Virus record (IMG/VR): IMGVR_UViG_3300030104_001428
Location: 1-41,475 of that record
From: a virus
Length of the DNA stretch: 41,475 nt
Reading direction: 5' to 3' (one strand)
The translations under genes were made by a program, and so were the position numbers. This document shows positions 892-37,380 of this stretch, piece by piece. The first letter of the stretch is position 1; each line of letters opens with the position of its first letter. The notes beneath the pieces were generated by a model. That model was not told the origin of the DNA, made no database searches, and was given only the letters and a program-made list of their open reading frames with translations.

Positions 892-972
892 ATCTCCGGT
901 TCGTTCAGTTGATGGATATAAATATACGCTATTTCCGTGTCCATGTCTACAAGTTTATAAAAATTTATACAA
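892..972 (-). promoter_or_regulatory. Early-type promoter P1 for the ArdC gene
   Basis: Reading the minus strand: TTGTAG (952-947), GACACGG (941-935), an AT box TATATT (926-921), then ACCGGAGATAAAG just before the start codon. The same order of elements occurs before four other units. The TTG-to-TATATT spacing is 20 nt, too long for a standard sigma-70 promoter, so GACACGG may be the true anchor. An AT-rich palindrome TATAAAAATTTATA lies immediately upstream (956-969). Confidence 0.7.
935..972. repeat. 38-nt exact direct repeat, copy 1
   Basis: This stretch is identical to 1363-1400, in the same orientation. It covers the GACACGG element, the TTGTAG box and the upstream AT-rich palindrome of promoters P1 and P2. 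Flanking sequence diverges at once on both sides, so selection or a short recent duplication kept only the control core. Confidence 0.9.
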
Positions 973-984
973 TTTATTTTAGGC

Positions 985-1009
985 AAAAAAAAGGCCACTT
1001 GCGTGGCCC
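985..1009 (-). terminator. Intrinsic terminator after the 94-aa gene
   Basis: On the minus strand a perfect GGCCAC stem, GCAA loop and GTGGCC stem are followed by eight T residues (992-985). It lies 20 nt past the stop of the 94-residue gene and just upstream of promoter P1, so it separates the two units. Confidence 0.9.
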
Positions 1010-1027
1010 TTGTAAAAAGTGTTTGAG

Positions 1028-1312
1028 TTAGTCGCAAATGTTTTGGACACAAGAGATAAAAACCTTTTTGTTTACTACATCAATGCTGGCAACTTTGTCA
1101 GCATCTCTATAACGCAAAGCTCCGCGAGAACTTTGTGCTGGCCTCAAAACTTTTGCAGAGTGCATTGCTTTTACAATTCTTTCGCAAACTGCGTCAGTAA
1201 CCTCTCCATCAAAAACAAAGTCAATTGACTCAGTCCAAGTATCGCACCAAGCGTGTTGCTTTCTTGATCCTTCCACAACCTGCCTAGTGTTAATTTTTAA
1301 AGCTCCGTTCAT
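1028..1312 (-). CDS. Hypothetical early protein, 94 aa
   Basis: I do not recognise this family. The 94-residue soluble protein starts MNGALKINTRQVVEG, has tryptophans at WCDTWTES and ends in a short cysteine-containing segment (VFISCVQNICD). There is no membrane segment or known catalytic motif. The ATG follows ACCGGAGATAAAA, the shared early leader, and the unit has its own promoter (P2) and its own terminator at 985-1009, so it is monocistronic. Its position beside an antirestriction gene and its shared control suggest an early host-takeover or defence-related role, which is inference. Confidence 0.75.
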   Translation of the reverse strand: MNGALKINTRQVVEGSRKQHAWCDTWTESIDFVFDGEVTDAVCERIVKAMHSAKVLRPAQSSRGALRYRDADKVASIDVVNKKVFISCVQNICD

Positions 1313-1316
1313 TTTT

Positions 1317-1400
1317 ATCTCCGGTTAGTTATTTATCAATTCAGGAGTATTATGAACTAATCCCGTGTCCATGTCTACAAGTTTATAAAAATTTATACAA
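1317..1400 (-). promoter_or_regulatory. Early-type promoter P2 for the 94-aa gene
   Basis: On the minus strand: TTGTAG (1380-1375), GACACGG (1369-1363), CATAAT (1354-1349), then ACCGGAGAT before the ATG at 1312. The upstream AT palindrome is identical to that of P1. As in P1, the TTG box and the -10-like box are 20 nt apart, while GACACGG to the -10-like box is 8 nt. Confidence 0.7.
1363..1400. repeat. 38-nt exact direct repeat, copy 2
   Basis: This is the second copy of the repeat at 935-972. It holds the core of promoter P2. Confidence 0.9.
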
Positions 1401-1426
1401 CTATTTTCAGTTAATTTTTAGTGGAG

Positions 1427-2140
1427 TTATGGATTAGCTTGGATCAGATCAACGACACGGGATTTATTGTAGAGCCAGAAGACCAGCAGATACCTATCGC
1501 CCTTACTGACGGTCAGGCCTCGATGGTTGTGGGTGAAGGAAGGAAAGATTAAACCATGGCCGTTAGGCAATGGCTTGAGCTTGCCAAAGTTATGAAACTC
1601 TGTGCCGCCGCCTGTGTATGATCCCGTGTTCAATGGAACAACCACAGAGATGTCTGATGACTCGTCATGATGCCAATGCCCCATTTCTGTCTCAGCTAGA
1701 TTGTAGTTAGCAATCTGAATGCTTGCAGGGTCCGGGCAACTACGTTGCCAGATTGACATAATGATGGGATCAATCACGTTGCGAACTACAAACCACATGT
1801 TGGTATAAAGCTCTGGGCATCTCTCCCTCAACACAATCTCAGGGATCTGCCGCAGGTCATCCTCGCTTGAGTTAGATTCAAACCCAAACTCCTTTTTCAT
1901 ATGCTCGATCTCTTCGCACATCATCTTGCACCAGCTTCGCCTGAAGATGGGCATGGTGTAGACATCAGGAAACGGGTTCTTCAACATTTTCTGAATCGGC
2001 GTGCGCTCCATCTTATCCATGCCACGCTGAGCCATGTAGCGTGTGATCGTGGGCAGTGAATCTTGCACGGCTTGATACGTGTTCTGATTAATCATCCAAT
2101 GGCTCTGCATCGAGAGCATGTAGTTCTTTAGTACATACAT
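1427..2140 (-). CDS. 2OG-Fe(II) oxygenase (prolyl-4-hydroxylase-like fold)
   Basis: The C-terminal half (residues about 140-228 of 237) carries the double-stranded beta-helix signature: GHWHHD, giving the H157xD159 iron ligands, a GGGTEFH strand, a distal H206 in THNHRG, and the 2-oxoglutarate-binding R216 in KGDRYLLVFW. Such enzymes hydroxylate proteins, nucleic acids or small molecules using Fe(II), 2-oxoglutarate and oxygen; the substrate here is unknown. The N-terminal 120 residues are less conserved and helical. The ATG at 2140 is used; an in-frame TTG at 2158 is possible, and neither has a clear Shine-Dalgarno sequence. It is divergent from the RHH operon and upstream of the early 94-aa unit. 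Confidence 0.82.
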   Translation of the reverse strand: MYVLKNYMLSMQSHWMINQNTYQAVQDSLPTITRYMAQRGMDKMERTPIQKMLKNPFPDVYTMPIFRRSWCKMMCEEIEHMKKEFGFESNSSEDDLRQIPEIVLRERCPELYTNMWFVVRNVIDPIIMSIWQRSCPDPASIQIANYNLAETEMGHWHHDESSDISVVVPLNTGSYTGGGTEFHNFGKLKPLPNGHGLIFPSFTHNHRGLTVSKGDRYLLVFWLYNKSRVVDLIQANP

Positions 2141-2142
2141 GT

Positions 2143-2204
2143 TTGCATATTGTCGCAAATATTTATAAAATGATCTACAACTTGTAACTTACCAAAGTAA
2201 TATT
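2143..2204 (+). promoter_or_regulatory. Promoter/operator region of the RHH operon
   Basis: TTGCAT (2143-2148), a 17-nt spacer and TAAAAT (2166-2171) form a sigma-70-like promoter reading right. Between it and the ATG at 2205 lie short palindromes, ACAA-C-TTGT (2178-2186) and TTAC-CAAA-GTAA (2189-2199), typical of sites bound by ribbon-helix-helix regulators. The region also overlaps the start of the divergent oxygenase gene, so one regulator could control both. Confidence 0.5.
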
Positions 2205-2381
2205 ATGAATGACGTTGAAGAGGTAAACACTAAGACTAGAAAGTCTTTGGCTCTGGATGTTCGCACCTACAATATGCTTCAGGAAATTTGTAACAGCGAG
2301 CGTCGAACCAAGATAGATCAGTTGAAGGTTTTGATCGAAAGAGAACACAAAATTATATTCCCAGAAGAAGTGAGCGCATGA
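2205..2381 (+). CDS. Small ribbon-helix-helix (Arc/MetJ-like) regulator, 58 aa
   Basis: The 58-residue product reads MNDVEEVNTKTRKSLALD, then VRTYNMLQEICNSER, then RTKIDQLKVLIEREHK. A polar N-terminus, a short strand (KSLALDV) and two helices match the RHH fold, in which the strand pair contacts DNA as a dimer. Its stop overlaps the start of the next gene (ATGA at 2378-2381), so the two are translationally coupled. The palindromes just upstream suggest autoregulation. An antitoxin-like role is also possible, but the downstream partner does not look like a known toxin. The Shine-Dalgarno sequence is weak. Confidence 0.72.
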   Translation: MNDVEEVNTKTRKSLALDVRTYNMLQEICNSERRTKIDQLKVLIEREHKIIFPEEVSA

Positions 2382-2629
2382 ATTTGTTCAAGCGAAAGAA
2401 GCCTGTTCCCCAGACTTACCAGCCAGTCCTTGAAGCAAAGGAAGTGATCGATTTGTTTTCAAGGCTCACCCTCCACCATCAGGCGGCACTCATGCGTTTG
2501 ATATCACGTAACCTTGTCATACAAGTTGGCGGCGAACAGTACATGGGTTATGAGTTTAATTACGATGTAGATAGCGCCGTCATCTTAGCTCATGAATCTG
2601 AGCCACAAGGCGAGTTGGATCTAGACTAA
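2378..2629 (+). CDS. Hypothetical protein coupled to the RHH regulator, 83 aa
   Basis: I do not recognise a family. The 83 residues start with a basic MNLFKRKKPVP segment, contain a helix (LFSRLTLHHQAALMRLISR) and end acidic (EPQGELDLD). It is co-transcribed with the RHH gene through an ATGA overlap. Its 3' end overlaps the 3' end of the convergent virion gene by 9 nt (TAA at 2627-2629 against TAG at 2623-2621), with no terminator between them, so transcriptional interference is possible there. Confidence 0.75.
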   Translation: MNLFKRKKPVPQTYQPVLEAKEVIDLFSRLTLHHQAALMRLISRNLVIQVGGEQYMGYEFNYDVDSAVILAHESEPQGELDLD

Positions 2630-4897
2630 ACCGCCAATGCCAGATCGTCTGGCGCGTAACCGCATAGCAAGTTCCCTGTCATCATCCCTAGGCAATATTG
2701 TGGGAGACATGGATGGATCAAAATCTAACGGCGCTCCAGTTTGTCCCGGCATTACGCCCTCGAAAATATCTACATCTAGAGAGCCTTGCGGATCATTAAG
2801 AGAATCTTGAGTTTGTTCAATTCTTTGCTGGATCATCTCGTCAAGCTTGCCTTGTGTGGGTTTGTAGGCCTCATCTTCTGATGTAATTTTGTCAACAACC
2901 TCAGCAGCGCCTCTGGTGACTGCTTGTTTTACTCCAAAGTCAAAAGTATCTAGGTAATCGTAAGCTTTCTGTATGTCAGCTATTGAGTCAGGATCAAACA
3001 AGACATCAGCCAAAGTTTGATAATAGGCGTCTGCCTGCTTCATGTTAATGTTGCGAATCATGTCATCGCCTATAGTGCCATTCAGCGTTCTACCAAATAT
3101 ACGAAGCCCCGATAACAAAAACTTAGTGGTTCTCATGCCCAATCCAGCCGTATCTTCCATCAGCTGCTTTTCAATTAACTGTAAGGGTTGTGTATCTGAT
3201 CCGCCTTTTGATACGCGCATAGCTTTTCCAACCATCTCGATCAAGCGACTAAAGTTGGCATATTCTTCTGGCTCTAACATTTCTCGCATAAGCTTGTTTG
3301 TTTTGCTTTTTGCAAAAAATTGTTGAAATTGAGGAAGACCCTGATCGATATTTTGACGCATCAAATCATCAAGTTTATCTATAACAAAAAACTTTTTAGC
3401 GTCTTTGTAAGCTTCTGGATCTACCGCTCTAAGCACACGTTTAGCGTTTCTTGCAGACTGTATTGATACATTAGGGTCAAACAAATCTTTTACAGCTTTA
3501 GCGCTTGCCTTGTCAGTCATAACTCTGGAAAGCTTTCCTATCGCTGAAGACTCAACCATTTGTAAAGATGGCTTTGTAGGATCGTACACTCTTCTGGCCA
3601 AACGATATGTGTCGTCTGCCGCATCAAACAAAGTAGTCAGATCCTCTCTTAATGAGATAAGCTTTGAACCTTGATCTGTGCCTATATTCGCTTTGATTAG
3701 GTTTTCAATTGATCCGGCTCTGCGATCATGCAGTGCCATCATGTTTTGTATTTGTTTCCCTTCTGTATCAAACAAAAGATTTTTAAAAGCTGTTAATGAT
3801 TCAATCACATCAGGATCTAATTCTGTGTTTGATAGCTGATCATCAATTTTTTTAATTAAAGGAGTGGTATCCACCAAAACAGGCTCTGGAGCATTACGAA
3901 TAGAGTCGTATAGTTTTGTGGCTCGTTCTTTTCGTTTTGACGCAAGTCTTTCTATTGCTTGTTTTCCAGCCGCCGATACTCTAGCGTTCACATCGCCAAA
4001 CTGTTGCTTCATGCTTCCAAAGCTTTCTGCCAAAGCCTCAATTGCTTCTCTGGTCCTAGTAGCTCTGCTGTCGTAAAACCTTCTTATAGATTCAATCTGA
4101 GGCTGTCTAGTAAGATAATACTGTATACCTATAGCCCTTGAGCCAATGTCTGAAGCTTCAGCTGATGTGAGCTTAATTCCCATCTTAGCAGCTTCATCGA
4201 TAATGCCTTGGTTGGTTTCCCGCAAAGTCATCAAGTATCTAAGCGTGTCCTCTTTCCCCACAAATTTATTGACTACATTTCTAACTGGTCCAGCACCAAA
4301 AGGGATTGCTGAAAAACCAGAGGACACCAACAAGTCGTCGTAAGCTGCCTTGATTTCTTCAGGAGGCAGATTATAAAACATATCAATCATCGCCTCTCGG
4401 CCAGTTCTTGCAACTCCGCCGATTAAAAAGTTTCCGCCAAAACCGCCAATTGCGGTGGTTCCCAAAGTCACTGCCATTTTAGCCAAGGGGTTTTTTATGT
4501 TTTTAGAAAGGTCTAAGCCTTTTTTAAATCCAGCAGTAGCCCCCGCTAAACCACCGCCAACGTCAGCAACGAATGTTGATGTAGGCACAATGTTTGGGAA
4601 TACATAGTCTTCAAACCAACCAATATCTTCTCCGGGTTCAAATACTTTTTTTGTAGATCCATCGTAGTCTGTGTATATCAGCTCACCATCTTTGTATCTG
4701 AAGCGAGCTACTGCCGAAGGATCGTCTGGAAACTTTTCTGAAGCAAAGTATTCGAGCATTGCGTCGTCGCTAAAAAATAAATTACCCCTTGCTTTCATCA
4801 GACCATAATCCATGAAGTCGCGGTCTTCTTGCATCTGGTTCTGCATCATTCGCTGAGTAAGCTTTTCTATTTCATCGTCGTAGTTTGTTTCAGCCAT
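2621..4897 (-). CDS. Putative internal virion / DNA-ejection protein, 758 aa
   Basis: This is a large, mostly alpha-helical protein. Residues about 108-165 are glycine-rich and hydrophobic (VADVGGGLAGATAG, then TTAIGGFGGNFLIGGVA) and could insert in a membrane. Residues 220-600 are helical and charged, with likely coiled coil around AIERLASKRKERATKLYDS. The C-terminal 90 residues are polar and end RLRARRSGIGGLV. There is no enzymatic motif. It is the promoter-distal gene of the structural operon, 2 nt from its neighbour. In podovirus-like phages large proteins with this composition are often ejected internal proteins; that role is inferred from size, composition and position only. Confidence 0.6.
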   Translation of the reverse strand: MAETNYDDEIEKLTQRMMQNQMQEDRDFMDYGLMKARGNLFFSDDAMLEYFASEKFPDDPSAVARFRYKDGELIYTDYDGSTKKVFEPGEDIGWFEDYVFPNIVPTSTFVADVGGGLAGATAGFKKGLDLSKNIKNPLAKMAVTLGTTAIGGFGGNFLIGGVARTGREAMIDMFYNLPPEEIKAAYDDLLVSSGFSAIPFGAGPVRNVVNKFVGKEDTLRYLMTLRETNQGIIDEAAKMGIKLTSAEASDIGSRAIGIQYYLTRQPQIESIRRFYDSRATRTREAIEALAESFGSMKQQFGDVNARVSAAGKQAIERLASKRKERATKLYDSIRNAPEPVLVDTTPLIKKIDDQLSNTELDPDVIESLTAFKNLLFDTEGKQIQNMMALHDRRAGSIENLIKANIGTDQGSKLISLREDLTTLFDAADDTYRLARRVYDPTKPSLQMVESSAIGKLSRVMTDKASAKAVKDLFDPNVSIQSARNAKRVLRAVDPEAYKDAKKFFVIDKLDDLMRQNIDQGLPQFQQFFAKSKTNKLMREMLEPEEYANFSRLIEMVGKAMRVSKGGSDTQPLQLIEKQLMEDTAGLGMRTTKFLLSGLRIFGRTLNGTIGDDMIRNINMKQADAYYQTLADVLFDPDSIADIQKAYDYLDTFDFGVKQAVTRGAAEVVDKITSEDEAYKPTQGKLDEMIQQRIEQTQDSLNDPQGSLDVDIFEGVMPGQTGAPLDFDPSMSPTILPRDDDRELAMRLRARRSGIGGLV

Positions 4898-4899
4898 GA

Positions 4900-6468
4900 C
4901 TACTTCGTAAGTCCAAAGTTTTGTATAAGATAATCAGGCACTGCCAGACCACCGTCCAACATTCTTTGCAGCTTTTCTTTTTTAGCTTCAAAATCCATGC
5001 TTGTGTCTTTACTAATTTGTTCAGCTAAATTTTCAGAGCTAGTGTTAATGTTGACCTTTGCTTCGCTTGTGCCGCCAGTAATTTCTTTCGCTGCCTGTAT
5101 TTGTTTGTATTGTTGTATGCTGTCGCTTACGTCAAACCCCTCAGCTATACCAGCTCCAGCCCCGCCAACACCTAGTTTATTGATTGCCTCGGCTTCGCCT
5201 CTGGCAACGCCGCTAAGTGTTTCAAACTCTTCAGGTTCAAATATAGGGTTTTTGCGCTGCCATGTAGCTGCAAATCTGTCCAAACCTCTTTTTTGTTTAG
5301 CTTTAGAAAATTTAAGCCCTTCAAGCCTGTCAGCCTCCTCAGAGTAAGCAATAGCATAGTCTTCAGATCTTTTTGCTATTCTTTCTAAGTAGTCAAGCTG
5401 TTTCATAAATCCGTTGTAGGTGCTTGTCAAAACCGGGGATGCAGCTAAAAACATTTCCATTTCACGGTTAGAAATAGCACCTTTGGTTTGACCTACAATT
5501 GCCATGGCAAAACCAATGCCAAGCTGGTTCATTAATATTTGATCGCCAACCCTGCCACTATCGATCATCCCGTCTAAACCAACGCCTACCAGTATTTTTT
5601 TAATTGGCAACAAAAACGCTTCTTGTGGTCCATAACCACTTTCGCCTATGCGCTCTGCAACCATTCTTGCATACTTAACCTGATCAATAACGCCAGAGGC
5701 AGCTCTCGACTCCTCTGTAATGGTGTTTTCATTTGCGATCATGGCTTTCGTGTATTCTTTGTCTCCAGCCTCTCCTTGGTTGATTACAGTGTTTGGGCTT
5801 TTAATTTGAATGCCGTTTCTGTTTTTTAACAAGTCGTTAATTACAGACTTGTTTGTCGCGTTGTCTCTAAACGTCCCTTGTTTCCGCACGCCACTAGCAA
5901 CCATGACCGGTTTGCCATCGTCGTCTAATACTGGCTCGCCCTGCTCATCTACACTTGGAACCATCTCGTCAAACTCAATGGTAACTAGATCGCCCGGATC
6001 ATTGGCCAGTTTAAGTAGCTCTAAAGAATAGCGCTGCAAGTAGTCTTGCGCTTTTTGCTCGTCTTGCATGGCAAGATTCATAGCTTGAAAAGCAATCTGT
6101 TGATTGGCTTTTGCGTTAGCTTCTTGATTGGCTCTAGTCCTTGCGGAAAAGTTTCCAAAACCTCTGCCTATTCCCTCGTAAACATTCCCAGATTTTGGGG
6201 TAGCTAGTATTGCCGCACCCAAATCAGATGCTAAATCATATATCCCCATTTTTGGAGATTGATACGCGTAAGGCGCAAGTCTTTTTTGATATTTATCAAA
6301 ACTAGTTTCATATGTCGGTTGATTAGCTTGCATCATCATCAACCGCAACGTATTTGGATCAATCGAGCTTAGATCAATAGAACCGGAGAAAGGATCTGTT
6401 TTTTCAACAGCGCCTGCCTCTGCAAAGCCTTCGATCTGTTCTTCCATTTGAGGTCTACCAATAGCCAT
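4900..6468 (-). CDS. Putative virion structural protein, 522 aa
   Basis: The family is unknown to me. The protein is helical and soluble. Residues about 100-160 contain the alanine/glutamine-rich segment RANQEANAKANQQIAFQA; a later region (MEMFLAASPVLTSTYNGFMKQLDYLERIAKRSEDY) suggests a helical bundle. Its ATG overlaps the stop of the upstream 677-residue gene as TAATG (6470-6466), so translation is coupled. It lies between two other large putative internal proteins, so a role as a virion-internal or portal-proximal protein is likely but inferred. Confidence 0.6.
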   Translation of the reverse strand: MAIGRPQMEEQIEGFAEAGAVEKTDPFSGSIDLSSIDPNTLRLMMMQANQPTYETSFDKYQKRLAPYAYQSPKMGIYDLASDLGAAILATPKSGNVYEGIGRGFGNFSARTRANQEANAKANQQIAFQAMNLAMQDEQKAQDYLQRYSLELLKLANDPGDLVTIEFDEMVPSVDEQGEPVLDDDGKPVMVASGVRKQGTFRDNATNKSVINDLLKNRNGIQIKSPNTVINQGEAGDKEYTKAMIANENTITEESRAASGVIDQVKYARMVAERIGESGYGPQEAFLLPIKKILVGVGLDGMIDSGRVGDQILMNQLGIGFAMAIVGQTKGAISNREMEMFLAASPVLTSTYNGFMKQLDYLERIAKRSEDYAIAYSEEADRLEGLKFSKAKQKRGLDRFAATWQRKNPIFEPEEFETLSGVARGEAEAINKLGVGGAGAGIAEGFDVSDSIQQYKQIQAAKEITGGTSEAKVNINTSSENLAEQISKDTSMDFEAKKEKLQRMLDGGLAVPDYLIQNFGLTK

Positions 6469-10319: not shown

Positions 10320-10323
10320 AAAG

Positions 10324-19224: not shown

Positions 19225-19249
19225 AAATAAAAAGGGCCGAAGCCCTTTT
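19225..19249 (-). terminator. Intrinsic terminator of the helicase gene
   Basis: On the minus strand AAAAGGGC, a TTCG loop and GCCCTTTT are followed by TATTTG. It begins 2 nt after the helicase stop. The TTCG tetraloop and GGGC stem resemble the terminator at 21187-21212 on the other side of the helicase. Confidence 0.88.
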
Positions 19250-19250
19250 G

Positions 19251-21101
19251 TTATGAGGTGTACACCTTGTCGTATTTTTGACCCAAGCCAGAAGCTACGA
19301 TCTGCCTCTTGTACTTCTTAACCATAGTCTTGGCAGCGTGTTGTTGAGCTGGAGTCCACTCGTCTTGCCTTGCCAAAGAGTTACCCAAACCGCTGTCCAT
19401 TTTGTTGAAGCCAGAACCGTCCTCTTCAAAAGCTCCGTCACATGCGCTTGCAACGCTTGCTACGAAATCTTGTAAAGAAGAAACTACAGCTTTTGGTAAA
19501 GGCTTAGGAGACTTTTTGGTTTTAGCTTTGAAAGTCTTTTCGACAGCCTCAACATCTAGAGCAATGTCCTCGATGCTGATGTTGTTCACAACCACATTGT
19601 CTAGAGCCTTATCTAACACTCTTTGCTTGCCAACCAAAACCTGTGCAAGTCTCGCGTCGATAGATCCGTCAACAACCAAGTGCTGAACCAAAACTGAGCT
19701 GTCTTGACCGATTCTGTGGCAACGATCTTCTGCCTGTGACATGTTGCCCGGAACCCAATCTAACTCAGCAAATACAACGTGGCTTGCTGAAGTAAGCGTG
19801 ATGCCAACACCAGCTGCTCCTATTGTTCCAATGAAGACATCTGCATTACCATCTTGAAAAGTCTCTACCGAGTTTTGTCTGTGAGCTTGGTTGCAGTCAC
19901 CAGTCAGAGTAACCACTGATTTGCCAGCAGCCTCCAAGCCAGATTTGATTCCGTCTACAACATCTTTGTGGTGAGCCATGACCACTACCTGATGATCAAT
20001 TGCAGCAACGTGAGTTACAACATCGTTTACTTTTGCCAAAGCTGTCTCATGTCGTACACCTGACATTTGCTCGAACTCGATGTCTTCAGAAGAAGTTTCA
20101 TCAACCGCGTCAGCCAAGGTTTCAAACTCTTTTTTGATTTGGTCGCTGTAGTCGCTGTTAGGCAACACAATGATTTGTCGAACCTTCTCAGGAAGCTCTT
20201 TGAGAACCTCGTCCTTTTTTCTTCTAATCATGAAAGACTGTCGTAACACTCTCTGTAACTCGTCAAGGTTGGAAGATCCGTTGAAGTCCCAAACAGTCTT
20301 ACGGCCAATGTTGATTTGGTGAGCGCCAGCGTATCGAACTCCAAACTTGAAGTAGTTACCAAAAGTAGCAGGGTCAAGATAACCAGCGATAGGCTGTAGC
20401 TCAATAGGACGATTAGTGATTGGAGTGCCAGTCAAAACCACTTTGCGATTGGCTTTGATACCGACAGCAACTTTAGTGCGAGCAGCTGTATTGTTTTTGA
20501 TGTAGTGAGCCTCGTCCATAATCACTAAGTCCCAAGTGCGAGCATTGATTGCGTCCTTATGCTTAGACAAAACATCATAGTTAATGATGATCACATCCGG
20601 GGTAGCAGGGATCTGCTCGCCGCCACCGTTGACGATCTGGATGTCCCTGTCAGCAACCAACCATTTGGTCATCTCGTTTTTCCAGTTGATCTTCAGAGAT
20701 GCTGGGCAAACAACCAATACAGTCTTAGGTGCAGTCGCGTTAATTACTCCGATGGCCTGTATGGTTTTGCCTAAGCCCATCTCGTCACCAATCAAAGTTG
20801 AAGAGCGCTTGATAGCGTAAGCGATTCCAGCTTTCTGGTAAGGAAGGTAAGACAAACCAGCTGGCACTGGGATATCAATGTCTGCATCTGTAGCTTGAGA
20901 ATCAGCAATCGCCTGATCGTTGTCTCTGTAACGAGTGACAACCCACTTGTTGTCTACCTTACGAACAGAGTAACCAGCTGCTTTGATCGCAGCTTTCTTC
21001 TCGCGCCATACGGTCCAAAACTCTTGGGTAGGAGAAGCAGTGCTGACAAAACGTCCATCTGTGTGGACCGTTTCTTTTGACCAATCTAGCTTCAGTTCCA
21101 T
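19251..21101 (-). CDS. SNF2-family (DEAD/H-like) helicase, 616 aa
   Basis: The protein has the SNF2 helicase core: Q-like motif YLPYQKAGI (86-93 region), Walker A DEMGLGKT (106-113), DEAH (196-199), LTGTPI (223-228) and C-terminal motif VI QAEDRCHRIGQ. Such ATPases translocate on double-stranded DNA. In phages they have been linked to remodelling or DNA repair; the role here is inference. Start at 21101 follows ACCGGAGATAAAC. It has its own early-type promoter P3 and is bounded by terminators at 21187-21212 and 19225-19249, so it is insulated from the capsid operon that surrounds it. Codon use does not obviously differ by eye. Confidence 0.93.
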   Translation of the reverse strand: MELKLDWSKETVHTDGRFVSTASPTQEFWTVWREKKAAIKAAGYSVRKVDNKWVVTRYRDNDQAIADSQATDADIDIPVPAGLSYLPYQKAGIAYAIKRSSTLIGDEMGLGKTIQAIGVINATAPKTVLVVCPASLKINWKNEMTKWLVADRDIQIVNGGGEQIPATPDVIIINYDVLSKHKDAINARTWDLVIMDEAHYIKNNTAARTKVAVGIKANRKVVLTGTPITNRPIELQPIAGYLDPATFGNYFKFGVRYAGAHQINIGRKTVWDFNGSSNLDELQRVLRQSFMIRRKKDEVLKELPEKVRQIIVLPNSDYSDQIKKEFETLADAVDETSSEDIEFEQMSGVRHETALAKVNDVVTHVAAIDHQVVVMAHHKDVVDGIKSGLEAAGKSVVTLTGDCNQAHRQNSVETFQDGNADVFIGTIGAAGVGITLTSASHVVFAELDWVPGNMSQAEDRCHRIGQDSSVLVQHLVVDGSIDARLAQVLVGKQRVLDKALDNVVVNNISIEDIALDVEAVEKTFKAKTKKSPKPLPKAVVSSLQDFVASVASACDGAFEEDGSGFNKMDSGLGNSLARQDEWTPAQQHAAKTMVKKYKRQIVASGLGQKYDKVYTS

Positions 21102-21106
21102 GTTTA

Positions 21107-21178
21107 TCTCCGGTTCATCAATTTATGCGTTAAATATACAAGATTCCGTGTCGTTGTGCAAGTTTTTATACAAGTATA
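21107..21178 (-). promoter_or_regulatory. Early-type promoter P3 for the helicase gene
   Basis: On the minus strand: TTGCAC (21161-21156), GACACGG (21152-21146), TATATT (21138-21133), then ACCGGAGATAAAC. TTGCAC to TATATT is exactly 17 nt, the best sigma-70 geometry of the five. A palindrome TATACAAGTATA (21167-21178) lies upstream. Confidence 0.78.
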
Positions 21179-21186: not shown

Positions 21187-21212
21187 TAAAAAAAGAGGGC
21201 CGAAGCCCTCTA
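21187..21212 (-). terminator. Intrinsic terminator after the major capsid gene
   Basis: On the minus strand AGAGGGC, TTCG and GCCCTCT form a 7-bp stem followed by TTTTTT. It lies about 80 nt downstream of the capsid stop and just upstream of P3. The plus-strand side has a weaker T stretch, so it may act in both directions. Confidence 0.85.
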
Positions 21213-30560: not shown

Positions 30561-30562
30561 GT

Positions 30563-30769: not shown

Positions 30770-30770
30770 A

Positions 30771-31250: not shown

Positions 31251-31259
31251 GGGAAGACC

Positions 31260-31580
31260 TTACGGTTTTCTAGACATGTAGGCGGTAGCGCCGAAGTACA
31301 ACCCTATAATCGAAGCTTGTGAAAGGAAGAGCATATCACTCAGTGAAGACAAAGTTGCGAGGCGTTCTTCTGGGACAAAAGGTAATAGCGGTAACAATGA
31401 ATATAAAACCATTGAAGACATTGCCACCCAAGCTATACGCCTTTGTGAGTCTTGCTTCTCTTCTCGTAGGTCCAATTCCAGCATTTGCGTTGCTCGCTCA
31501 AGCTCCTGATCGTCCACGGTCCCGTCTTTATTGATATCGTATTTTGCCCAAACAGAATTTTCTTGTAGTTTCTTAGGCAT
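31260..31580 (-). CDS. EF-hand membrane protein (holin-like), 106 aa
   Basis: The N-terminus contains one complete EF-hand loop (DINKDGTVDDQE, residues 15-26, with D1, N3, D5, T7, D9 and E12 liganding positions). Residues 47-64 (AWVAMSSMVLYSLLPLLPFV) and 78-102 (LSDMLFLSQASIIGLYFGAT) are two hydrophobic segments. It lies in the lysis cluster next to spanins and other membrane genes, so a holin or holin regulator sensitive to calcium is one hypothesis. The EF-hand loop is seen directly; function is inferred. Confidence 0.78.
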   Translation of the reverse strand: MPKKLQENSVWAKYDINKDGTVDDQELERATQMLELDLREEKQDSQRRIAWVAMSSMVLYSLLPLLPFVPEERLATLSSLSDMLFLSQASIIGLYFGATAYMSRKP

Positions 31581-31680
31581 TTTTTTTCAGCCGTTGTTGC
31601 CGATAAAACGTCATGTACTCGTCCCATCGCACAAATTGTTTTTTTTCGTGCAGGTAAAATAAACCTTTGTAAATGCTCAT
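31573..31680 (-). CDS. Small protein, 35 aa
   Basis: It reads MSIYKGLFYLHEKKQFVRWD, then EYMTFYRQQRLKKNA. It overlaps the start of the EF-hand gene by 8 nt and begins 2 nt downstream of the secreted-protein gene at 31683. Both linkages support a real, coupled gene, though the ribosome-binding site is weak (GGGA). Aromatic and basic; function unknown. Confidence 0.5.
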   Translation of the reverse strand: MSIYKGLFYLHEKKQFVRWDEYMTFYRQQRLKKNA

Positions 31681-31682
31681 AA

Positions 31683-31910
31683 TCAATCCCAAAACTTTTG
31701 GTTTCTACCCGCCATTACAGGTCTGCAATAAGCCGTTATGTTGTGTTGCTTAATTCCGCCTCGGCAACGGCTATCTCTGCAATTATGTTCTATCCAGTAT
31801 GCAAATTGTTGACAGCGATGTATATCTCTAAATAACATTTGGTCTGCACCCTCAACGACATTGCCCTCAACAACCGTTATGAGCATAAAAGCTAGGATTG
31901 CGCCTTTCAT
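31683..31910 (-). CDS. Secreted cysteine-containing protein, 75 aa
   Basis: Residues 1-14 are a short signal-peptide-like segment (KGAILAFMLITVVEG). The mature part has four cysteines (RCQQF, HNCRDSRCR, AYCRP), likely forming disulfides in the periplasm. I remember similar short proteins with FRDI and ITAYC motifs from marine phages. It lies in the lysis region; a periplasmic lysis or superinfection-exclusion role is possible but unproven. Confidence 0.68.
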   Translation of the reverse strand: MKGAILAFMLITVVEGNVVEGADQMLFRDIHRCQQFAYWIEHNCRDSRCRGGIKQHNITAYCRPVMAGRNQKFWD

Positions 31911-31913
31911 CTG

Positions 31914-32096
31914 TCATAAGAATTTAGTAGCAAGTATGCTAATAGCGATAAATGGATAAACGCCCCATATAAGCATCTCTAAACGCTTAAACTTTGCCGA
32001 ACCCTCATCAAGACGTTTTTCGATATGTTCATATCTTACAGCGCATTCTCTTTGGTGTGCCTTTATCTCACTCAAAGCCTCTTGCGCTTCATCCAT
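31914..32096 (-). CDS. XhlA-like small membrane protein, 60 aa
   Basis: A charged helix (QRECAVRYEHIEKRLDEGSA) precedes one C-terminal hydrophobic segment (MLIWGVYPFIAISILATKFL), the layout of XhlA-type holin partners. It is coupled to the 68-aa gene by TGATG (32098-32094). It is a candidate holin or antiholin component. Confidence 0.65.
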   Translation of the reverse strand: MDEAQEALSEIKAHQRECAVRYEHIEKRLDEGSAKFKRLEMLIWGVYPFIAISILATKFL

Positions 32097-32302
32097 CAGT
32101 CGGACCTTTTAACAAACTTGATTGGGTTTGTAGTAGTGCCTTCTTTGGCCTTGCCAATATTAAGCGCGATTGTTTCAAGCACAGGGTATATGTACTTACC
32201 CATAAACTCGTTGTCTCTAGGCGTAGGTGTAGCCGCACAGATCGCACTACTCACCGTTACAAAAAGACTTGCGTATATGAGCAGGTCTGCAATTAAATCC
32301 AT
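32096..32302 (-). CDS. Small membrane protein, holin candidate, 68 aa
   Basis: It starts with one hydrophobic segment (LIADLLIYASLFVTVSSAIC) followed by AATPTPRDNEFMGKYIYPVL, ETIALNIGKAKEG and a basic end. I recall short proteins with ATPTPxD and ALNIGKAK motifs in marine phages, annotated variously. The single segment plus location in the lysis cluster makes it a holin candidate. Function unproven. Confidence 0.62.
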   Translation of the reverse strand: MDLIADLLIYASLFVTVSSAICAATPTPRDNEFMGKYIYPVLETIALNIGKAKEGTTTNPIKFVKRSD

Positions 32303-32319
32303 TACTAATCCTTTAAGTT

Positions 32320-32535
32320 TTATTCAGAAGAAGCTTCAATTTTTGGCTCTTCATTTGCAATATTAGCCACATTACCCTCTGCTGGGGCTTGCTCTTTTAA
32401 CTCAGCATGGAATCGCTCGCGCATTGCTCCAATTACGGCTAATTGATCTCCAGCAAAAAGACCTTGTTTTGCTGCTCCATCAATCAAAGTAATAACATTC
32501 GCTAGATCGTGGGTTTGTATATGTTTAGTTTCCAT
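32320..32535 (-). CDS. Hypothetical protein, 71 aa
   Basis: The N-terminal half is helical (ANVITLIDGAAKQGLFAGDQ) and the C-terminal tail acidic (NEEPKIEASSE). Strong ribosome-binding site (AAGGAGAAATAA). It lies between a small membrane gene and the 91-aa gene. No family recognised. Confidence 0.7.
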   Translation of the reverse strand: METKHIQTHDLANVITLIDGAAKQGLFAGDQLAVIGAMRERFHAELKEQAPAEGNVANIANEEPKIEASSE

Positions 32536-32548
32536 TTATTTCTCCTTG

Positions 32549-32824
32549 TTAAAGGCTCTCAGCCTCGTCACGTTCTTTGCGTGTTTTATAATCATCTCTG
32601 CCAGTTATCAAGGTTACAAAGTCTGCTTGATTTGATGGGATGGAATCTGTGAAGCTATTGTCGTTCATAAGCTTCGTAGTCCACTCAGACTGCATACGTT
32701 TCCAGCAGTTGTTTTGCTTACCTGCTACAGCGTCCTTAATCCAATCTTCTATGGATAACAAGTCGTTCAACATGATTTTTTGCATCGTGTCGTTTACCGT
32801 TATTTCTACTTTTAAATCTGCCAT
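32549..32824 (-). CDS. Hypothetical protein, 91 aa
   Basis: A soluble helical protein (TMQKIMLNDLLSIEDWIKDA, NCWKRMQSEWTTKLMND). Strong ribosome-binding site (AAAGGAGATAAAAC). It is placed between tail fibre and lysis genes; possibly a fibre-assembly chaperone by position, which is only inference. Confidence 0.68.
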   Translation of the reverse strand: MADLKVEITVNDTMQKIMLNDLLSIEDWIKDAVAGKQNNCWKRMQSEWTTKLMNDNSFTDSIPSNQADFVTLITGRDDYKTRKERDEAESL

Positions 32825-32861
32825 GTTTTATCTCCTTTAAGATAGGTTATTTCGCCTGTGG

Positions 32862-34733
32862 TTATGCTACTAAGTAGCCTGAAAAGTTACTTTGAGCGGA
32901 TACTGGAATATCCATTTGTGCGGTTCCTTCAAACTGTCCTATATCAACTAGTGCAGTGTCAGAAGCATCCATGTCTGCAAGCACAGATAGTGAAAATGAG
33001 TCTCTTACTCGATCTGCCGAATAATTAGGCTCAAAAATAAAAGTGTAATCACGATTTGAAGTACGAATTTCAACTCTGATATAAGTTGCTTCAGCATCTG
33101 AATCATTTACATAAACGATTGTGTTAAGCTGATACCTACCTGCTACTGGCGCAGTAAATGTAGAAGCACTTGCATTATAATCTGCATTATTGTCAAAAAT
33201 TTCAGTGGTAAATCCTACTGTGTTTCTACTAGCATTAGTTGCAATATTAAGAGTTTGTGTCCCTACTTGAGCAGAAAATGCTGGCTGCTTTGGCATGGTA
33301 ACGTGGCCGTTAGAATCTAATCTTACAGACTCACTGTTGCCTCCTGAATTTAAAACTAAATCGGCTTCCGAACGAAAAATGAAATCTGACACCGCCGCCC
33401 CAGAGAGCAGAGATGAGCCAGTACCGATATAGGCTCTAACCGTGCCTTGAGGATGAAAGCTAATATACCCACTCGTACTTCCAGTACCTGAATTGGTGTG
33501 AAACTCTGCGATTCCTGAATGCGCGTCACCTGTTTTAAATTGCGTTATACCTGAATTTTGGATACGCAGCCTTTCTGTTGCTGCTTCCGCTCCATCAGTC
33601 GTAGTACTAAATACAAGTCTTCCGGGCATATCATTAGTACCCGGAGTTCCATCCACAAACGCTTGTATTGAAGCACCTACTGGAGCAAGATCACCACCGT
33701 CTGCTCCTGCAAACATTATCTGACCAAGAATGTCATTAGCCTGAACTACGGTGGTTGCAGCTACAGAAGTACCCCTGCTTTTAGATAAAATTAAATAAGG
33801 GCCACCAGTATCATTTGAATTTCTTGTTGCGCTAATAGAGCTAGAAGCAGAACCAGTACCATGAACTTGCACCGTTGGTGCTACACCAGCTTGGCTTACA
33901 CTAGCACTATGATTGACTAGTATTTTGCCATCTCCATTTACATGAAACGCATTTCCACCGCCTGTTCTTTGATTATCTATCCTGAAAGCTACGTCTGATG
34001 ATGTACTACCAGCAACCAAATAAAGACCAAAGTTTCTATCGTCTGTCGCTTCTTGGTTTCTAAGAAAAGCTACATAATCATTGTCTATTGCACCGTCAGC
34101 ACCATCTACCGTAAGCTTTTTAGGTAGGGTGACTTTTTGATCTTCATCAACACTTATAGCTGGAGTTGTGCCTACCGTACTGCCTAATCCAATTACTAGG
34201 TCATCAGCAGAATCATCCAACCCAATATAAAAATCCTGTGCGTTCCCATCAAAAACCAACGAAGTATCTTCTGCTGCACCATTTCCAATTCTAAAATTAG
34301 TACCAACGCTTAAATTGTCAAAAGCCTCAGTGACAGCAGCACCGCTCCCTGCGCCATCAAGATACACGGCTTTTACAAAACCATTAGGGATTGTTATTTC
34401 TGCGCCAGAACCTTGTTTAATGATGATGTTTTGTGAGCCTGAAGTTGCGTTCTCAATAAGGTGAACTCGAGTCATGGTGTTTGGCCCGATTGTAATCGTA
34501 CAAGCCGAATCAAGAGTTCCGGTGTACTTAATGTACATAGCTCTGCCGGGGTCAGTTGAGCCATCAGCTACTGTTGTAGCATGAGTGTCAGCATTAGTTG
34601 TTATGCCTTCTGTCGCATAACCTAGAGCCTCACCGATCAGCTCTAAATTTGTATTTGTCTCAGTTCCCCACGTTCCACTGGATTCTCCAGTGCCGATCTC
34701 TTTGAGGCGTAGGTCATTAACGTACGTTGCCAT
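32862..34733 (-). CDS. Tail fibre protein with C1q-like C-terminal domain
   Basis: The N-terminus (MATYVNDLRLKEIGTGESSG) is a common start of marine phage fibre proteins by memory. Long beta-rich repeats follow (DSADDLVIGLGSTVGTTPAI, NGDGKILVNHSASVSQAGVA). The last about 140 residues (PAFSAQVGTQTLNIATNASR, FTAPVAGRYQLNTIVYVND) match a C1q/TNF-like jelly-roll trimer tip. It has its own extended -10 promoter at 34754-34762 and a strong ribosome-binding site. It binds the host surface; the receptor is unknown. Confidence 0.85.
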   Translation of the reverse strand: MATYVNDLRLKEIGTGESSGTWGTETNTNLELIGEALGYATEGITTNADTHATTVADGSTDPGRAMYIKYTGTLDSACTITIGPNTMTRVHLIENATSGSQNIIIKQGSGAEITIPNGFVKAVYLDGAGSGAAVTEAFDNLSVGTNFRIGNGAAEDTSLVFDGNAQDFYIGLDDSADDLVIGLGSTVGTTPAISVDEDQKVTLPKKLTVDGADGAIDNDYVAFLRNQEATDDRNFGLYLVAGSTSSDVAFRIDNQRTGGGNAFHVNGDGKILVNHSASVSQAGVAPTVQVHGTGSASSSISATRNSNDTGGPYLILSKSRGTSVAATTVVQANDILGQIMFAGADGGDLAPVGASIQAFVDGTPGTNDMPGRLVFSTTTDGAEAATERLRIQNSGITQFKTGDAHSGIAEFHTNSGTGSTSGYISFHPQGTVRAYIGTGSSLLSGAAVSDFIFRSEADLVLNSGGNSESVRLDSNGHVTMPKQPAFSAQVGTQTLNIATNASRNTVGFTTEIFDNNADYNASASTFTAPVAGRYQLNTIVYVNDSDAEATYIRVEIRTSNRDYTFIFEPNYSADRVRDSFSLSVLADMDASDTALVDIGQFEGTAQMDIPVSAQSNFSGYLVA

Positions 34734-34753
34734 GTTATAAATCTCCTTTATGC

Positions 34754-34762
34754 ATTATAGCA
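34754..34762 (-). promoter_or_regulatory. Extended -10 promoter for the tail fibre gene
   Basis: On the minus strand TGCTATAAT is a perfect extended -10. The start would fall near 34747, giving a leader of about 14 nt that contains AGGAG. A TTGACT lies only 5 nt upstream, too close to be its -35, so the extended -10 probably suffices. Confidence 0.62.
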
Positions 34763-34770
34763 AAAGTCAA

Positions 34771-35352
34771 TTAAGCCGCATCTCGGCCTGCCTCTATTTC
34801 TTCATAGTTTGGCGTTTGACTGGTACTCACCGCACTATAACTTGCAGTTTGACTGTCGTCTATTGTAGCGTAATTAGCCGTCTGGGCTGTATCTATTTCT
34901 CCGTAGATCAGGAATGTGCCGATAGAGAAAGTTGAAACGACTCCTGTCGGGCTTACATTAGCTTTTCCAGAGGTAGTCACGCTGCCCAGACCAGAAGTAA
35001 TCGACTGGCCAGTAACCTCGACTACTTCGTTTTCATGAATAATGACCGAGCCTAATGCGCTGGTTATTCCTAACCCAGTCAGCGTTACATTTGCCTTCGC
35101 AGATACCGTGGGAGCGCCTAGGCCACTAGTAATGCCTAATCCAGTAAGTGTGACATTTGCATCAGCTGTAGTGGTTACAGAGCCTAGCCCAGAGGTAATG
35201 GCCAGCCCAGTAAGGGTGACATTTGCATCTGCCGTAACCGAAAGAGAGCCAAGCCCAGAGGTAATGGCCTGACCCGTAGGCTCAACGGGTAAAGCAGTAC
35301 CCCAAGCGCCTTCGTTCCATGTGCCTCGGCCCCAACCGTTGATATTAGCCAT
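34771..35352 (-). CDS. Repeat protein of tail region, 193 aa
   Basis: It starts MANINGWGRGTWNEGAWGTA. Five to six copies of a repeat of about 24 residues follow, e.g. LTGLAITSGLGSVTTTADAN. The end has three copies of an 11-residue repeat (DTAQTANYATI, DDSQTASYSAV, STSQTPNYEEI). I recall both kinds from tail-associated proteins of marine phages. Coupled to the 46-aa gene by TGATG (35354-35350). Confidence 0.72.
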   Translation of the reverse strand: MANINGWGRGTWNEGAWGTALPVEPTGQAITSGLGSLSVTADANVTLTGLAITSGLGSVTTTADANVTLTGLGITSGLGAPTVSAKANVTLTGLGITSALGSVIIHENEVVEVTGQSITSGLGSVTTSGKANVSPTGVVSTFSIGTFLIYGEIDTAQTANYATIDDSQTASYSAVSTSQTPNYEEIEAGRDAA

Positions 35353-35492
35353 CAGCTAAGATCCGACTTCGCGCTTTCTAGATTTGTTTTGATCCCGGTC
35401 AATTCTTCGCGCACAGGGCTAGTGATAAAATCGAGCAAAAGGATTGCATCGATCTTTTCTATCTGTGCCTGTATGTTGTCTTTTATGGTCAT
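35352..35492 (-). CDS. Small helical protein, 46 aa
   Basis: It reads MTIKDNIQAQIEKIDAILLL, then DFITSPVREELTGIKTNLES, then AKSDLS, likely a coiled coil. Its stop overlaps the start of the repeat gene. A -10-like TATAAT at 35512-35507 lies just upstream. Function unknown; it is too short for most gene callers. Confidence 0.65.
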   Translation of the reverse strand: MTIKDNIQAQIEKIDAILLLDFITSPVREELTGIKTNLESAKSDLS

Positions 35493-35506
35493 AATCTAGT
35501 CGTAGC

Positions 35507-35512
35507 ATTATA
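35507..35512 (-). promoter_or_regulatory. Candidate -10 box for the tail-repeat unit
   Basis: On the minus strand TATAAT is followed by GC, as at the tail fibre promoter (TATAATGC in both). It is about 15 nt upstream of the 46-aa gene start, so the leader would be very short. No good -35 box was found. Confidence 0.42.
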
Positions 35513-35527
35513 ACCAATAAAAAACAA

Positions 35528-36325
35528 CTAGGAAGCGACTCCCTGAAACTTGCGAGCTATAATCTTTTGCACTTTTGTGGGGGTGAAGTTCTCAAAACCT
35601 GCGTGGGTGTTTGCTACCTGCTTGGCAATACGCCTAGCACCCAGACCGCGCTGCCTGCACTTTTCAATCGTCCTCAACACGGCCTGCTCTTCAGGAATCT
35701 CGACTAGCTTCTTACGAGTCTTCATTCGATTGCCTTGTGGCAGGCGCTCTTCCTTGAAGCAAAACCCAAAGGGTGCGGAGCCGCCAATCGAGTATCCGCG
35801 TTGCGCCCAAGCAATCTTGCCCTCAGCAAACTTCTTCTTGGTGTTCTCAAACTCCATCTCAGCGACAGCAGATAGAACCATCAGCATGATCTGGTTCACC
35901 AACGAGTTCATGTCGTATTTAGACTCCAGACCTTTTGCGGCCATCTCTTTGGGATAGACCACTGGCATGTCATTAAACTGCTCACACAGATAAAGTGTCA
36001 CTCCGCTTTCTTCGAGATGCGGTATCGTTTGCAGCAGATCGTTACAACTACGCGAGAGTCTATCGATGCGAGTCGCAACGACAATGTCATACTCATCGAT
36101 AACATCCGTCATCGCCCTGCACTGTTCACGTTCCATGATCGGAACGGTTCCAGATACACCCGCATCTACAAACCACTCGCTGATATCCCGGTTGAATTTT
36201 TCTCGCACAAACTCAGAGATCAACTCTTGCTGGGTATCGATTGAGATCCCGTTCTCAGCCTGCTCAGTAGTTGATACTCGGCAGTAGCCGTAGATGTTGC
36301 GGATCTGTTTTTTAGGATTGCTCAC
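35528..36325 (-). CDS. Serine recombinase (resolvase family), 265 aa
   Basis: The catalytic N-terminal domain has YGYCRVSTTEQ (nucleophile S18, with R16) and the ATRIDRLSRS segment. A Recombinase-type DNA-binding region follows (EEQAVLRTIEKCRQRGLGAR, RIAKQVANTHAGFENFTPTK). At 265 residues it lies between small resolvases/invertases (about 185) and large integrases (450 or more), with no zinc ribbon or coiled coil. Start is GTG at 36325, overlapping the stop of the 76-aa gene. It is the last gene of the leftward early operon driven by P4. No att or inversion sites were seen by eye. Confidence 0.88.
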   Translation of the reverse strand: MSNPKKQIRNIYGYCRVSTTEQAENGISIDTQQELISEFVREKFNRDISEWFVDAGVSGTVPIMEREQCRAMTDVIDEYDIVVATRIDRLSRSCNDLLQTIPHLEESGVTLYLCEQFNDMPVVYPKEMAAKGLESKYDMNSLVNQIMLMVLSAVAEMEFENTKKKFAEGKIAWAQRGYSIGGSAPFGFCFKEERLPQGNRMKTRKKLVEIPEEQAVLRTIEKCRQRGLGARRIAKQVANTHAGFENFTPTKVQKIIARKFQGVAS

Positions 36326-36552
36326 TTCGCACCTCCTACGAATCCATACTTGGTTAGGTCTTCATGCAGTCGCTGCCAGTTTATATCAAGCGGTCCGCTT
36401 CCGTCCGAGTAATCGCCCATGAGCAGCTGGCCATCCTTGAGCAGCTGCACTGAACGATAGTTCTTAGGCGCACCATCAAGCTGGATATCAATATCATGCT
36501 TGAGGCAGGTACGGCGCACGCGATTGTAAAAACGCTTTTTGTCGGTGACCAT
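36322..36552 (-). CDS. Hypothetical protein, 76 aa
   Basis: It is small and soluble (KKRFYNRVRRTCLKHDIDIQ, RSVQLLKDGQLLMGDYSDGS). No known motif. It is in the P4 leftward operon, coupled to the recombinase by a 4-nt overlap. Function unknown. Confidence 0.72.
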   Translation of the reverse strand: MVTDKKRFYNRVRRTCLKHDIDIQLDGAPKNYRSVQLLKDGQLLMGDYSDGSGPLDINWQRLHEDLTKYGFVGGAK

Positions 36553-36556
36553 CTAA

Positions 36557-36856
36557 TCAAAACCTCCCTATAGTTTGTTCATAACTTTCGATAACTTCTT
36601 CTTTGATCTTCAGAAACAATGGCTTCGACTGATCAAGAATCTTATGGCTTTTCGGACTGCTGATTCTGAAGTCCGTTTGATCTTCATTGAAGTTAAAAAG
36701 ATAAAATCTATTTTTACCCTCTTCCTCAATCGCCCTTCCGTAAACACGCCCTGTCTTAACAAGCTGGTCAACAATTTCTTGAGCGCCTTTTAGCTCTTTT
36801 CCATAACCAAATACTGTTGGGCGAGTTGATGGGCGCTCAGTAAATTTGACTTTCAT
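36557..36856 (-). CDS. Hypothetical protein, 99 aa
   Basis: A soluble alpha/beta protein (GAQEIVDQLVKTGRVYGRAI, NRFYLFNFNEDQTDFRISS). Coupled to the upstream gene by TAATG (36858-36854). No family recognised. Confidence 0.72.
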   Translation of the reverse strand: MKVKFTERPSTRPTVFGYGKELKGAQEIVDQLVKTGRVYGRAIEEEGKNRFYLFNFNEDQTDFRISSPKSHKILDQSKPLFLKIKEEVIESYEQTIGRF

Positions 36857-37230
36857 TAAGCTGCTCCGTAGTGAAATGCTTTTTCTTCATCGTCCATCAT
36901 CAAATAATTTGCGTGTACTTCGTTTTTCTGAAAAGCGACAGAGCCATAAATGTAACGATCAAATCTCCAGCAATCTTGATCCCACTCTCTATCTGTTTTG
37001 TTAATCTTGTTAGCGAACGCCTCAGCTTTTTTGTAATCGTCTAAACAAAAACCATAATGATGTCTGAAGACTTTGCCGTCCTCAGTCTTGGCAATGATGC
37101 TGTAAAAAGTTTTGTCTGCAACTGGATCATACTCCTGACGATCTCCGTACTCTCTGGCGTGATAATCTTCCTCTGTCGCGTGACACTCTTTACCTACCGC
37201 TGCCTCAACTATGTTTCCTTCTATTCTCAC
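36856..37230 (-). CDS. First gene of leftward early operon, 124 aa
   Basis: It starts with GTG at 37230 (MRIEGNIVEAAVGKECHATE), has aromatic and histidine segments (GKVFRHHYGFCLDDYKKAEA, EWDQDCWRFDRYIYGSVAFQ) and no recognisable motif. It follows the shared ACCGGAGAT leader and promoter P4, and heads the operon ending in the serine recombinase. Function unknown. Confidence 0.75.
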   Translation of the reverse strand: MRIEGNIVEAAVGKECHATEEDYHAREYGDRQEYDPVADKTFYSIIAKTEDGKVFRHHYGFCLDDYKKAEAFANKINKTDREWDQDCWRFDRYIYGSVAFQKNEVHANYLMMDDEEKAFHYGAA

Positions 37231-37239
37231 TTTTCAATC

Positions 37240-37310
37240 TCCGGTTTCGTTAATCAATATGACCATTATGCACATTCCGTGTCGGTGTGCAACTATATGT
37301 ATACATTTAT
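37240..37310 (-). promoter_or_regulatory. Early-type promoter P4 for the leftward operon
   Basis: On the minus strand: TTGCAC (37292-37287), GACACGG (37283-37277), CATAAT (37270-37265), then ACCGGAGAT. The spacing is 16 nt. A palindrome ATGTATACAT (37297-37306) is shared with the divergent promoter P5. GCACA and TGTGC also flank the GACACGG core as an inverted repeat. Confidence 0.75.
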
Positions 37311-37326
37311 TTGAATATACAGAAAG

Positions 37327-37380
37327 TTGCATTTGGACACGGGGTGTGGTAAGCTGTCCTCATATTCAACAACCGGAGAT
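37327..37380 (+). promoter_or_regulatory. Early-type promoter P5 for the rightward operon
   Basis: Reading right: TTGCAT (37327-37332), GACACGG (37336-37342), TAAGCT (37350-37355, weak -10, spacing 17), then ACCGGAGAT. It is divergent from P4, sharing about 35 nt between them. Confidence 0.75.

Follow-up and report, generated by a model that had tools for sequence, protein, structure and literature searches.

Five promoters in the virus record IMG/VR IMGVR_UViG_3300030104_001428 (41,475 bp, in the following the window, that is, the whole stretch of DNA analysed, with terminase, portal and other virion genes) carry the heptamer GACACGG inside the spacer between the putative −35 and −10 hexamers, at about −26 to −20. 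The special feature of this box is its near-invariance while adjacent bases drift. The element is virus-specific, and the box carriers examined have virion genes in common and form one broad phage clade. The reading preferred here, to which close to an even chance is given, takes the sites as promoters of host RNA polymerase whose spacer holds an operator for a regulator made by the phage. The promoters and their leaders are:

921..952 (−): ardC promoter, TTGTAGACATG-GACACGG-N8-TATATT; box 935-941, −10 at 921-926, −35 TAGACA at 944-949; ribosome-binding leader ACCGGAGAT at 892..900 (−); position weight matrix (PWM) score 25.3
1349..1380 (−): promoter of the 94-aa gene, TTGTAGACATG-GACACGG-N8-CATAAT; box 1363-1369, −35 TAGACA at 1372-1377; leader ACCGGAGAT at 1317..1325 (−); PWM score 25.8
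21133..21161 (−): SNF2 promoter, TTGCACAAC-GACACGG-N7-TATATT; box 21146-21152; A/T-rich upstream element TTGTATAAAA at 21164..21173 (−), positions −20 to −13 conserved; leader ACCGGAGAT at 21106..21114 (−); PWM score 55.5
37265..37292 (−): recombinase-operon promoter, TTGCACACC-GACACGG-N6-CATAAT; box 37277-37283; leader ACCGGAGAT at 37237..37245 (−); PWM score 47.2
37327..37355 (+): HxxxH-operon promoter, TTGCATTTG-GACACGG-N7-TAAGCT; box 37336-37342; leader ACCGGAGAT at 37372..37380 (+); PWM score 24.5

These sites had been picked out in a sequence-only reading of the window, and all five are present, far above chance. In 200 Markov-1 simulations of the window the arrangement TTGYA-N3-7-GACACGG-N5-9-[TC]A, observed five times, reached a mean of 0.015; GACACGG-N20-50-ACCGGAGAT, likewise observed five times, was found in none of the 200, and ACCGGAGAT by itself was observed five times, with 0.13 expected. 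GACACGG by itself is mildly enriched (8 vs. 2.9 expected), the remaining three copies (1454+, 14309−, 24412−) being without a leader. Among 210 permutations of GACACGG in the same frame the true box scored 5 and the runner-up 3, the latter representing a one-base shift of the true sites. The PWM assigned 24.5-55.5 bits to the five sites, three of which (ardC, 94-aa gene and HxxxH operon) lay outside its training set, vs. a null maximum of 14.9 bits in 1.24 Mb of simulated sequence.

The consensus reads TTGTATAAAnAs-TTGCACA-nC-GACACGG-gAT-n3-TATAAT. In the promoters of ardC and the 94-aa gene the hexamers are TAGACA-17-TATATT and TAGACA-17-CATAAT; the other three sites have a TTGCAY hexamer 16 or 17 bp from the −10, with matches that are weak in places (TAAGCT, TTGCAT). 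Judged by their letters, the five promoters fit sigma-70 geometry, with predicted −35 and −10 hexamers 16-17 bp apart. The distances given in the sequence-only reading, 6-8 from GACACGG to the −10 and 16-20 from the TTG to the −10, were reproduced (8, 8, 7, 6, 7 and 20, 20, 17, 16, 17, respectively, in the order listed). Its argument that the varying TTG distance speaks against sigma-70 had to be abandoned because TAGACA restores a 17-bp spacer at both 20-bp sites, such that every site can be read with hexamers 16-17 bp apart. In most relatives the −10 is canonical, and the invariance of the box exceeds that of the −10. Ordinary bacterial promoters lack a fixed sequence at this place, and in those of sigma-70 type constraint is usually lowest in the spacer. 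Further conserved positions, outside the queried letters, occur in the upstream element of 40 non-redundant sites: A at −15 (98%) and −13 (92%), T at −18 (88%) and −20 (85%).

Conservation and virus specificity

Orthologues of the SNF2 helicase were gathered by protein similarity, blind to the motif, and their upstream regions, mostly at ≥78% protein identity, commonly keep the arrangement TTGTAYAAAAAc-TTGCAYA-nn-GACACGG-(5-8)-TATAWT. Within the orthologues with a recognisable box, which this comparison covers, GACACGG is near-invariant, while the two bases 5' of it and several bases 3' of it drift. Some orthologues have AACACGG or GACACGA, the L065 group has lost the box, and others have no such promoter altogether. 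In some lineages the leader ACCGGAGAT is swapped for AACAAGGAATGG with the box retained.

The record G001 (51,745 bp) is near-identical to the window and longer, and the window is therefore a fragment. A sixth site is found in G001 at 40911, so that the proposed five-member set, correct in its members, is an undercount; there are at least six, and the motif is clade-wide. Along these lines, promoter and leader, suggested to form a unit, do stand together at the five sites but are separable elsewhere: relatives (L030, L037 and others) have the box without ACCGGAGAT, and an open reading frame (ORF) of G001 at 41265 has ACCGGAGAT upstream and no box.

With the pattern TTGYRCA-NN-GACACGG-N5-8-TATA a scan of IMG/VR matched at least 119 stretches, and 119 of the 121 matches listed have a Shine-Dalgarno-like sequence and an ATG no more than 110 nt away. 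The same scan with control boxes returned five stretches for a permuted box and 12 for another altered box. The box thus recurs in many related phages and many contigs, upstream of about 76 protein families, altered boxes being rare; the proposal of a shared, dedicated element passed its own check against random occurrence. Bacterial and archaeal genomes amounting to 257 Gb yielded six chance-like matches to the pattern with TATAAT, none of them in a promoter context, in a scan that demanded both TATAAT and TTGYRCA and that a looser host form of the promoter could escape. On this basis an origin from a host promoter was rejected.

Per box-bearing record the PWM found one to six sites, and it found none in 15 box-less sister records. 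The nearest named phages by terminase (57-61% identity) are 023Pt_psg01, the Pelagibacter phages HTVC027P and HTVC023P, and DSL-LC04; all four were dismissed as carriers, having no PWM match in their first 50 kb. Searching annotated phages with the DNA of the first 25 kb of the window brought up no near relative, and blastn of a consensus vs. 50,697 phage records gave no credible match. In a further record (G022:14945-16235) four box promoters lie within 1.3 kb, ahead of short unknown genes, as a dense accessory cluster.

The promoters of the recombinase and HxxxH operons are divergent, and their boxes are 53 bp apart. In 11 distinct lineages, counted after orientation duplicates in the output had been merged by eye, this distance is 53 bp (seven), 43 bp (three) or 61 bp (one), while the intervening DNA has diverged. 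Ten of the 11 lineages thus have 53 or 43 bp, a difference of one helical turn, as would be expected if the bound proteins need a fixed rotational relation. The recombinase of G028 (43 bp) is 93.5% identical to that of the window (53 bp), those of G014 and G015 (43 bp) only about 60%, from which it follows that the helical-turn change occurred more than once or spread by recombination. The pattern, with few independent events behind it, suggests that the two sites must hold a rotational relation.

Genes served by the box

The first ORFs past the sites belong to the families mentioned above, with a median length of 97 aa, and are mostly of unknown function. Recognisable products are the SNF2 helicase, ArdC, an HD-domain protein, a GHKL-type ATPase, a DUF2786 protein and the recombinase operon. 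By layout, the served genes are small, accessory, individually transcribed units, many of them ORFans; the set looks like moron-type accessory genes, and early expression is plausible. The statement in the sequence-only reading that no site precedes a virion gene is true in the window; in G003, a tail-fibre gene at 52376, the sole virion gene among the families, stands behind the variant site GACACGCT. The genes of the window, with the hairpins beside them, are:

18..887 (−): ArdC-type antirestriction protein, 289 aa; PHROG 7245 (E 1.2e-68), Pfam ArdcN and MPTase-PolyVal
990..1011 (−): terminator-like hairpin and T run, directly upstream of the ardC promoter
1028..1312 (−): 94-aa protein, no PHROG or Pfam match
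19230..19249 (−): terminator-like hairpin downstream of SNF2
19251..21101 (−): SNF2-family helicase, 616 aa; PHROG 62 (E 3.4e-105), Pfam SNF2-rel_dom
21194..21211 (−): terminator-like hairpin upstream of the SNF2 promoter
35528..37230 (−): recombinase operon, 124-, 99- and 76-aa proteins and a 265-aa serine recombinase (Pfam Resolvase, 1.3e-24)
37387..38532 (+): HxxxH operon, small proteins of 141, 82, about 86 and 71 aa, function not assigned

Flanked by terminator-like hairpins on both sides, SNF2 is a self-contained cassette amid virion genes. The start of the HxxxH operon was set at the ATG at 37387 because 37381 is too near the GGAG. The first two proteins of this operon gave no Pfam match, and the designation "metalloprotein" in the sequence-only reading found no backing, the protein having neither a PHROG nor a Pfam match.

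The replication/recombination module has its own promoter without the box. At about 44330-44480 of G001 and at orthologous places this divergent module has a compact promoter with a TGTGTAMAATA-type −10 region, which is without GACACGG in box-bearing and box-less phages alike. The primase/helicase-like protein of the same record (G001:44440-46623) contains XXX, three unresolved residues, from an N stretch in the stored sequence. In G002 a box promoter at 4510(−) precedes a 64-aa protein (MLILKIDQVLRND...), by eye a possible small ribbon-helix-helix candidate with no Pfam match.

Candidate regulators and competing explanations

In the preferred explanation host sigma-70 polymerase would read a −35 (TTGCAC or TAGACA), a 16-17 bp distance, a −10 like TATAAT and the A/T-rich upstream element, whereas the GACACGG heptamer in the spacer would be the binding site of a phage-encoded regulator, most likely a small repressor (Arc-like or other). 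By occupying the spacer, such a repressor could set the timing or the level of dispersed, individually transcribed accessory genes. For comparison, Arc of phage P22 binds the −10/−35 spacer of its target promoter. We infer that transcription starts at these sites and that a phage protein bound at the box represses them, with early timing; the same GACACGG before so many unrelated gene families, together with its constancy in SNF2 promoters, argues for the box as the recognised element. Three loci are of interest as candidates:

2205-2381 (+): 58-aa Arc-like protein, candidate regulator, transcribed against its neighbours
2378-2629 (+): 83-aa partner of the Arc-like protein, likewise transcribed against the neighbours
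G001:41977-42168 (−): 63-aa protein beside an exonuclease, conserved, AARFVW..TW.QWWE.MF

The promoter of the 58-/83-aa pair itself is without GACACGG. PHROG 3180 (Arc-like repressor) was matched by five of ten homologues of the 58-aa protein (best 2.3e-5) and not by the window's own copy. All box-bearing records that extend over this locus have the Arc-like gene. Between the Arc-like pair and the box-promoter genes the window has a 2OG-Fe(II) oxygenase gene (PHROG 61) at 1427-2158(−), which is conserved next to the Arc-like gene in most relatives.

Several points weigh against the assignment of a repressor to the spacer. The sites of dimeric repressors are usually symmetric or repeated, and GACACGG is asymmetric. 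The Arc-like gene is also found in sister phages without the box, which weakens this protein as the exclusive partner of the box. Its ribbon-helix-helix fold was not confirmed (no match in Pfam, PDB sequences, CopG or a fold search), and the monomer model shows one helix. Finally, T4 early promoters have extra conserved bases too, and their presumed role is in recognition by the host polymerase as such (PMC2988021).

The sister phages G034, G035, G036, G038, G040, G044 and G045, of lower G+C content, have the upstream frame TTGTATAAA..TTGCACA and a spacer such as TTTGTGCAAAA, with no GACACGG; in some box-less sisters an inverted repeat results, TTGCACA-NN-TGTGCAA or a close variant. The predicted contact strand of the Arc-like protein, KSLA[LIV]D, exhibits no matching difference between box-bearing and box-less phages. 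The TTTGTGCAAAA-type spacer is possibly a diverged operator, or the Arc-like protein might read the shared part of the promoter and another factor the box.

For such a factor the 63-aa protein is a lead. Its gene is present in 13/13 box-bearing records with the exonuclease and in 0/15 box-less ones; it is absent from G004, which has a degraded box set, and present in G042, which has a variant box, but not in the sister G049. The protein gave a confident three-helix model with no PDB relative in a fold search. In the exonuclease tree a single, weakly supported split parts the box-bearing from the box-less groups, and for this reason the co-occurrence is only a lead. A version of the regulator idea in which GACACGG is a genuinely new promoter element, read together with a host-type −10 by a phage-encoded factor not described before, e.g., the 63-aa protein, the sites forming a promoter class for the accessory genes of this widespread clade and the phased divergent pair a control hub, is rather unlikely.

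The same co-occurrence would also fit promoters of the activator or sigma-appropriation type (as in T4 middle transcription), in which a phage factor would read TTGCACA-nC-GACACGG as the substitute for a good −35, only the −10 being left to host sigma-70. TTGCAC is indeed a poor −35 (3/6 matches), and the −10 is good in most relatives. However, ardC and the 94-aa gene already have a good −35 in TAGACA, the 63-aa distribution follows one clade split and its fold has no known relative, and the GACACGG box lies 6-8 bp from the −10, the MotA box 12 ± 1 bp (PMC2988021). The activator explanation is considered unlikely, though, like promoters read by host polymerase only, it is a serious competitor. 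Host polymerase alone could suffice if the sites were very strong early promoters, as in T4, whose box and upstream element optimise contact with the polymerase of the host and involve no regulator. T4 early promoters do have extra consensus regions besides the host elements (PMC2988021), the upstream element TTGTATAAA sits where a proximal UP element would be, and the lower-G+C sisters, perhaps infecting other hosts, keep the frame without the box. On the other hand, the constancy of the box exceeds that of the −10, although the spacer usually is under less constraint than any other part of a promoter, and nothing similar occurs in the sampled prokaryotic genomes, which is, though, true of other phage-type promoters too; a promoter optimised for polymerase only is considered rather unlikely. 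It is very improbable that the box has no regulatory role and that the likeness reflects descent only, through a mobile terminator-promoter cassette copied beside newly gained genes: long leaders are shared by the 94-aa site, G001:40911 and G002:4978, and the ardC and SNF2 sites have terminator-like hairpins ahead of them, yet diverged orthologues retain the box while flanks and leaders change. Copying of cassettes may well explain the spread of the sites, not the retention of the box.

Comparison with known systems

Very little is known of how uncultivated marine phages regulate their genes. Here, a large group of mostly uncultivated marine phages has accessory genes under one kind of promoter, which suggests a phage-made switch. 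With a virus-specific signature of this kind, candidate genes for host takeover and counter-defence can be recognised in metagenomes even where expression data are lacking, and ArdC is already tagged by it; furthermore, the GACACGG promoter provides a concrete DNA bait for the regulator. In the open-access literature searched, no description was found of a virus-specific promoter family of this clade whose spacer holds an invariant heptamer; the search for the motif returned nothing relevant, and the paper on the HTVC027P transcriptome is without promoter analysis.

Shared promoter motifs in phages are as such of a known kind, with T4 early and middle promoters and the SAS/ESAS elements (start-associated and extended start-associated sequences) as examples. 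The P22 Arc system offers a small phage repressor acting in the −10/−35 spacer, and an Arc-like protein is encoded here; the Arc operator, however, is a symmetric pair of half-sites, in contrast to the asymmetric GACACGG. The PeSL elements of T4-type phages (Arbiol et al. 2010) are reportedly mobile regulatory cassettes, a terminator plus a promoter movable before accessory genes; the present promoters differ by their spacer box and belong to a different phage clade.

Like SAS/ESAS of cluster K mycobacteriophages (PMC3203893), the motif is a short asymmetric sequence that recurs ahead of numerous genes from different families, often small ones, and is kept across a group of related phages. The ACCGGAGAT leader occupies a similar place to SAS and overlaps the ribosome-binding site, but its sequence is unrelated (ACCGGAGAT here, GGGATAGGAGCCC in SAS; PMC3203893). 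ESAS consists of 17-bp inverted repeats, whereas the aligned sites have no such repeat, their upstream part being the promoter frame with the spacer box.

T4 middle promoters (MotA box, AsiA) resemble the sites in that an element specific to the phage stands upstream of a good sigma-70 −10. The centre of the MotA box is at −30 (PMC2988021), and its spacing from the −10 is not that of GACACGG, which ends closer to the −10; no MotA or AsiA homologue was found among the selected proteins scanned, a part of all proteins. T4 early promoters (PMC2988021) come near in several respects, since they too belong to the sigma-70 type, possess an A/T-rich element upstream together with extra conserved positions, and are scattered before non-virion genes; an UP-like element, sigma-70 hexamers and extra consensus were all found in the sites described here. 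What sets the latter apart is a discrete, invariant 7-bp spacer box, known here from sequence alone, for which T4 early promoters have no counterpart according to PMC2988021.

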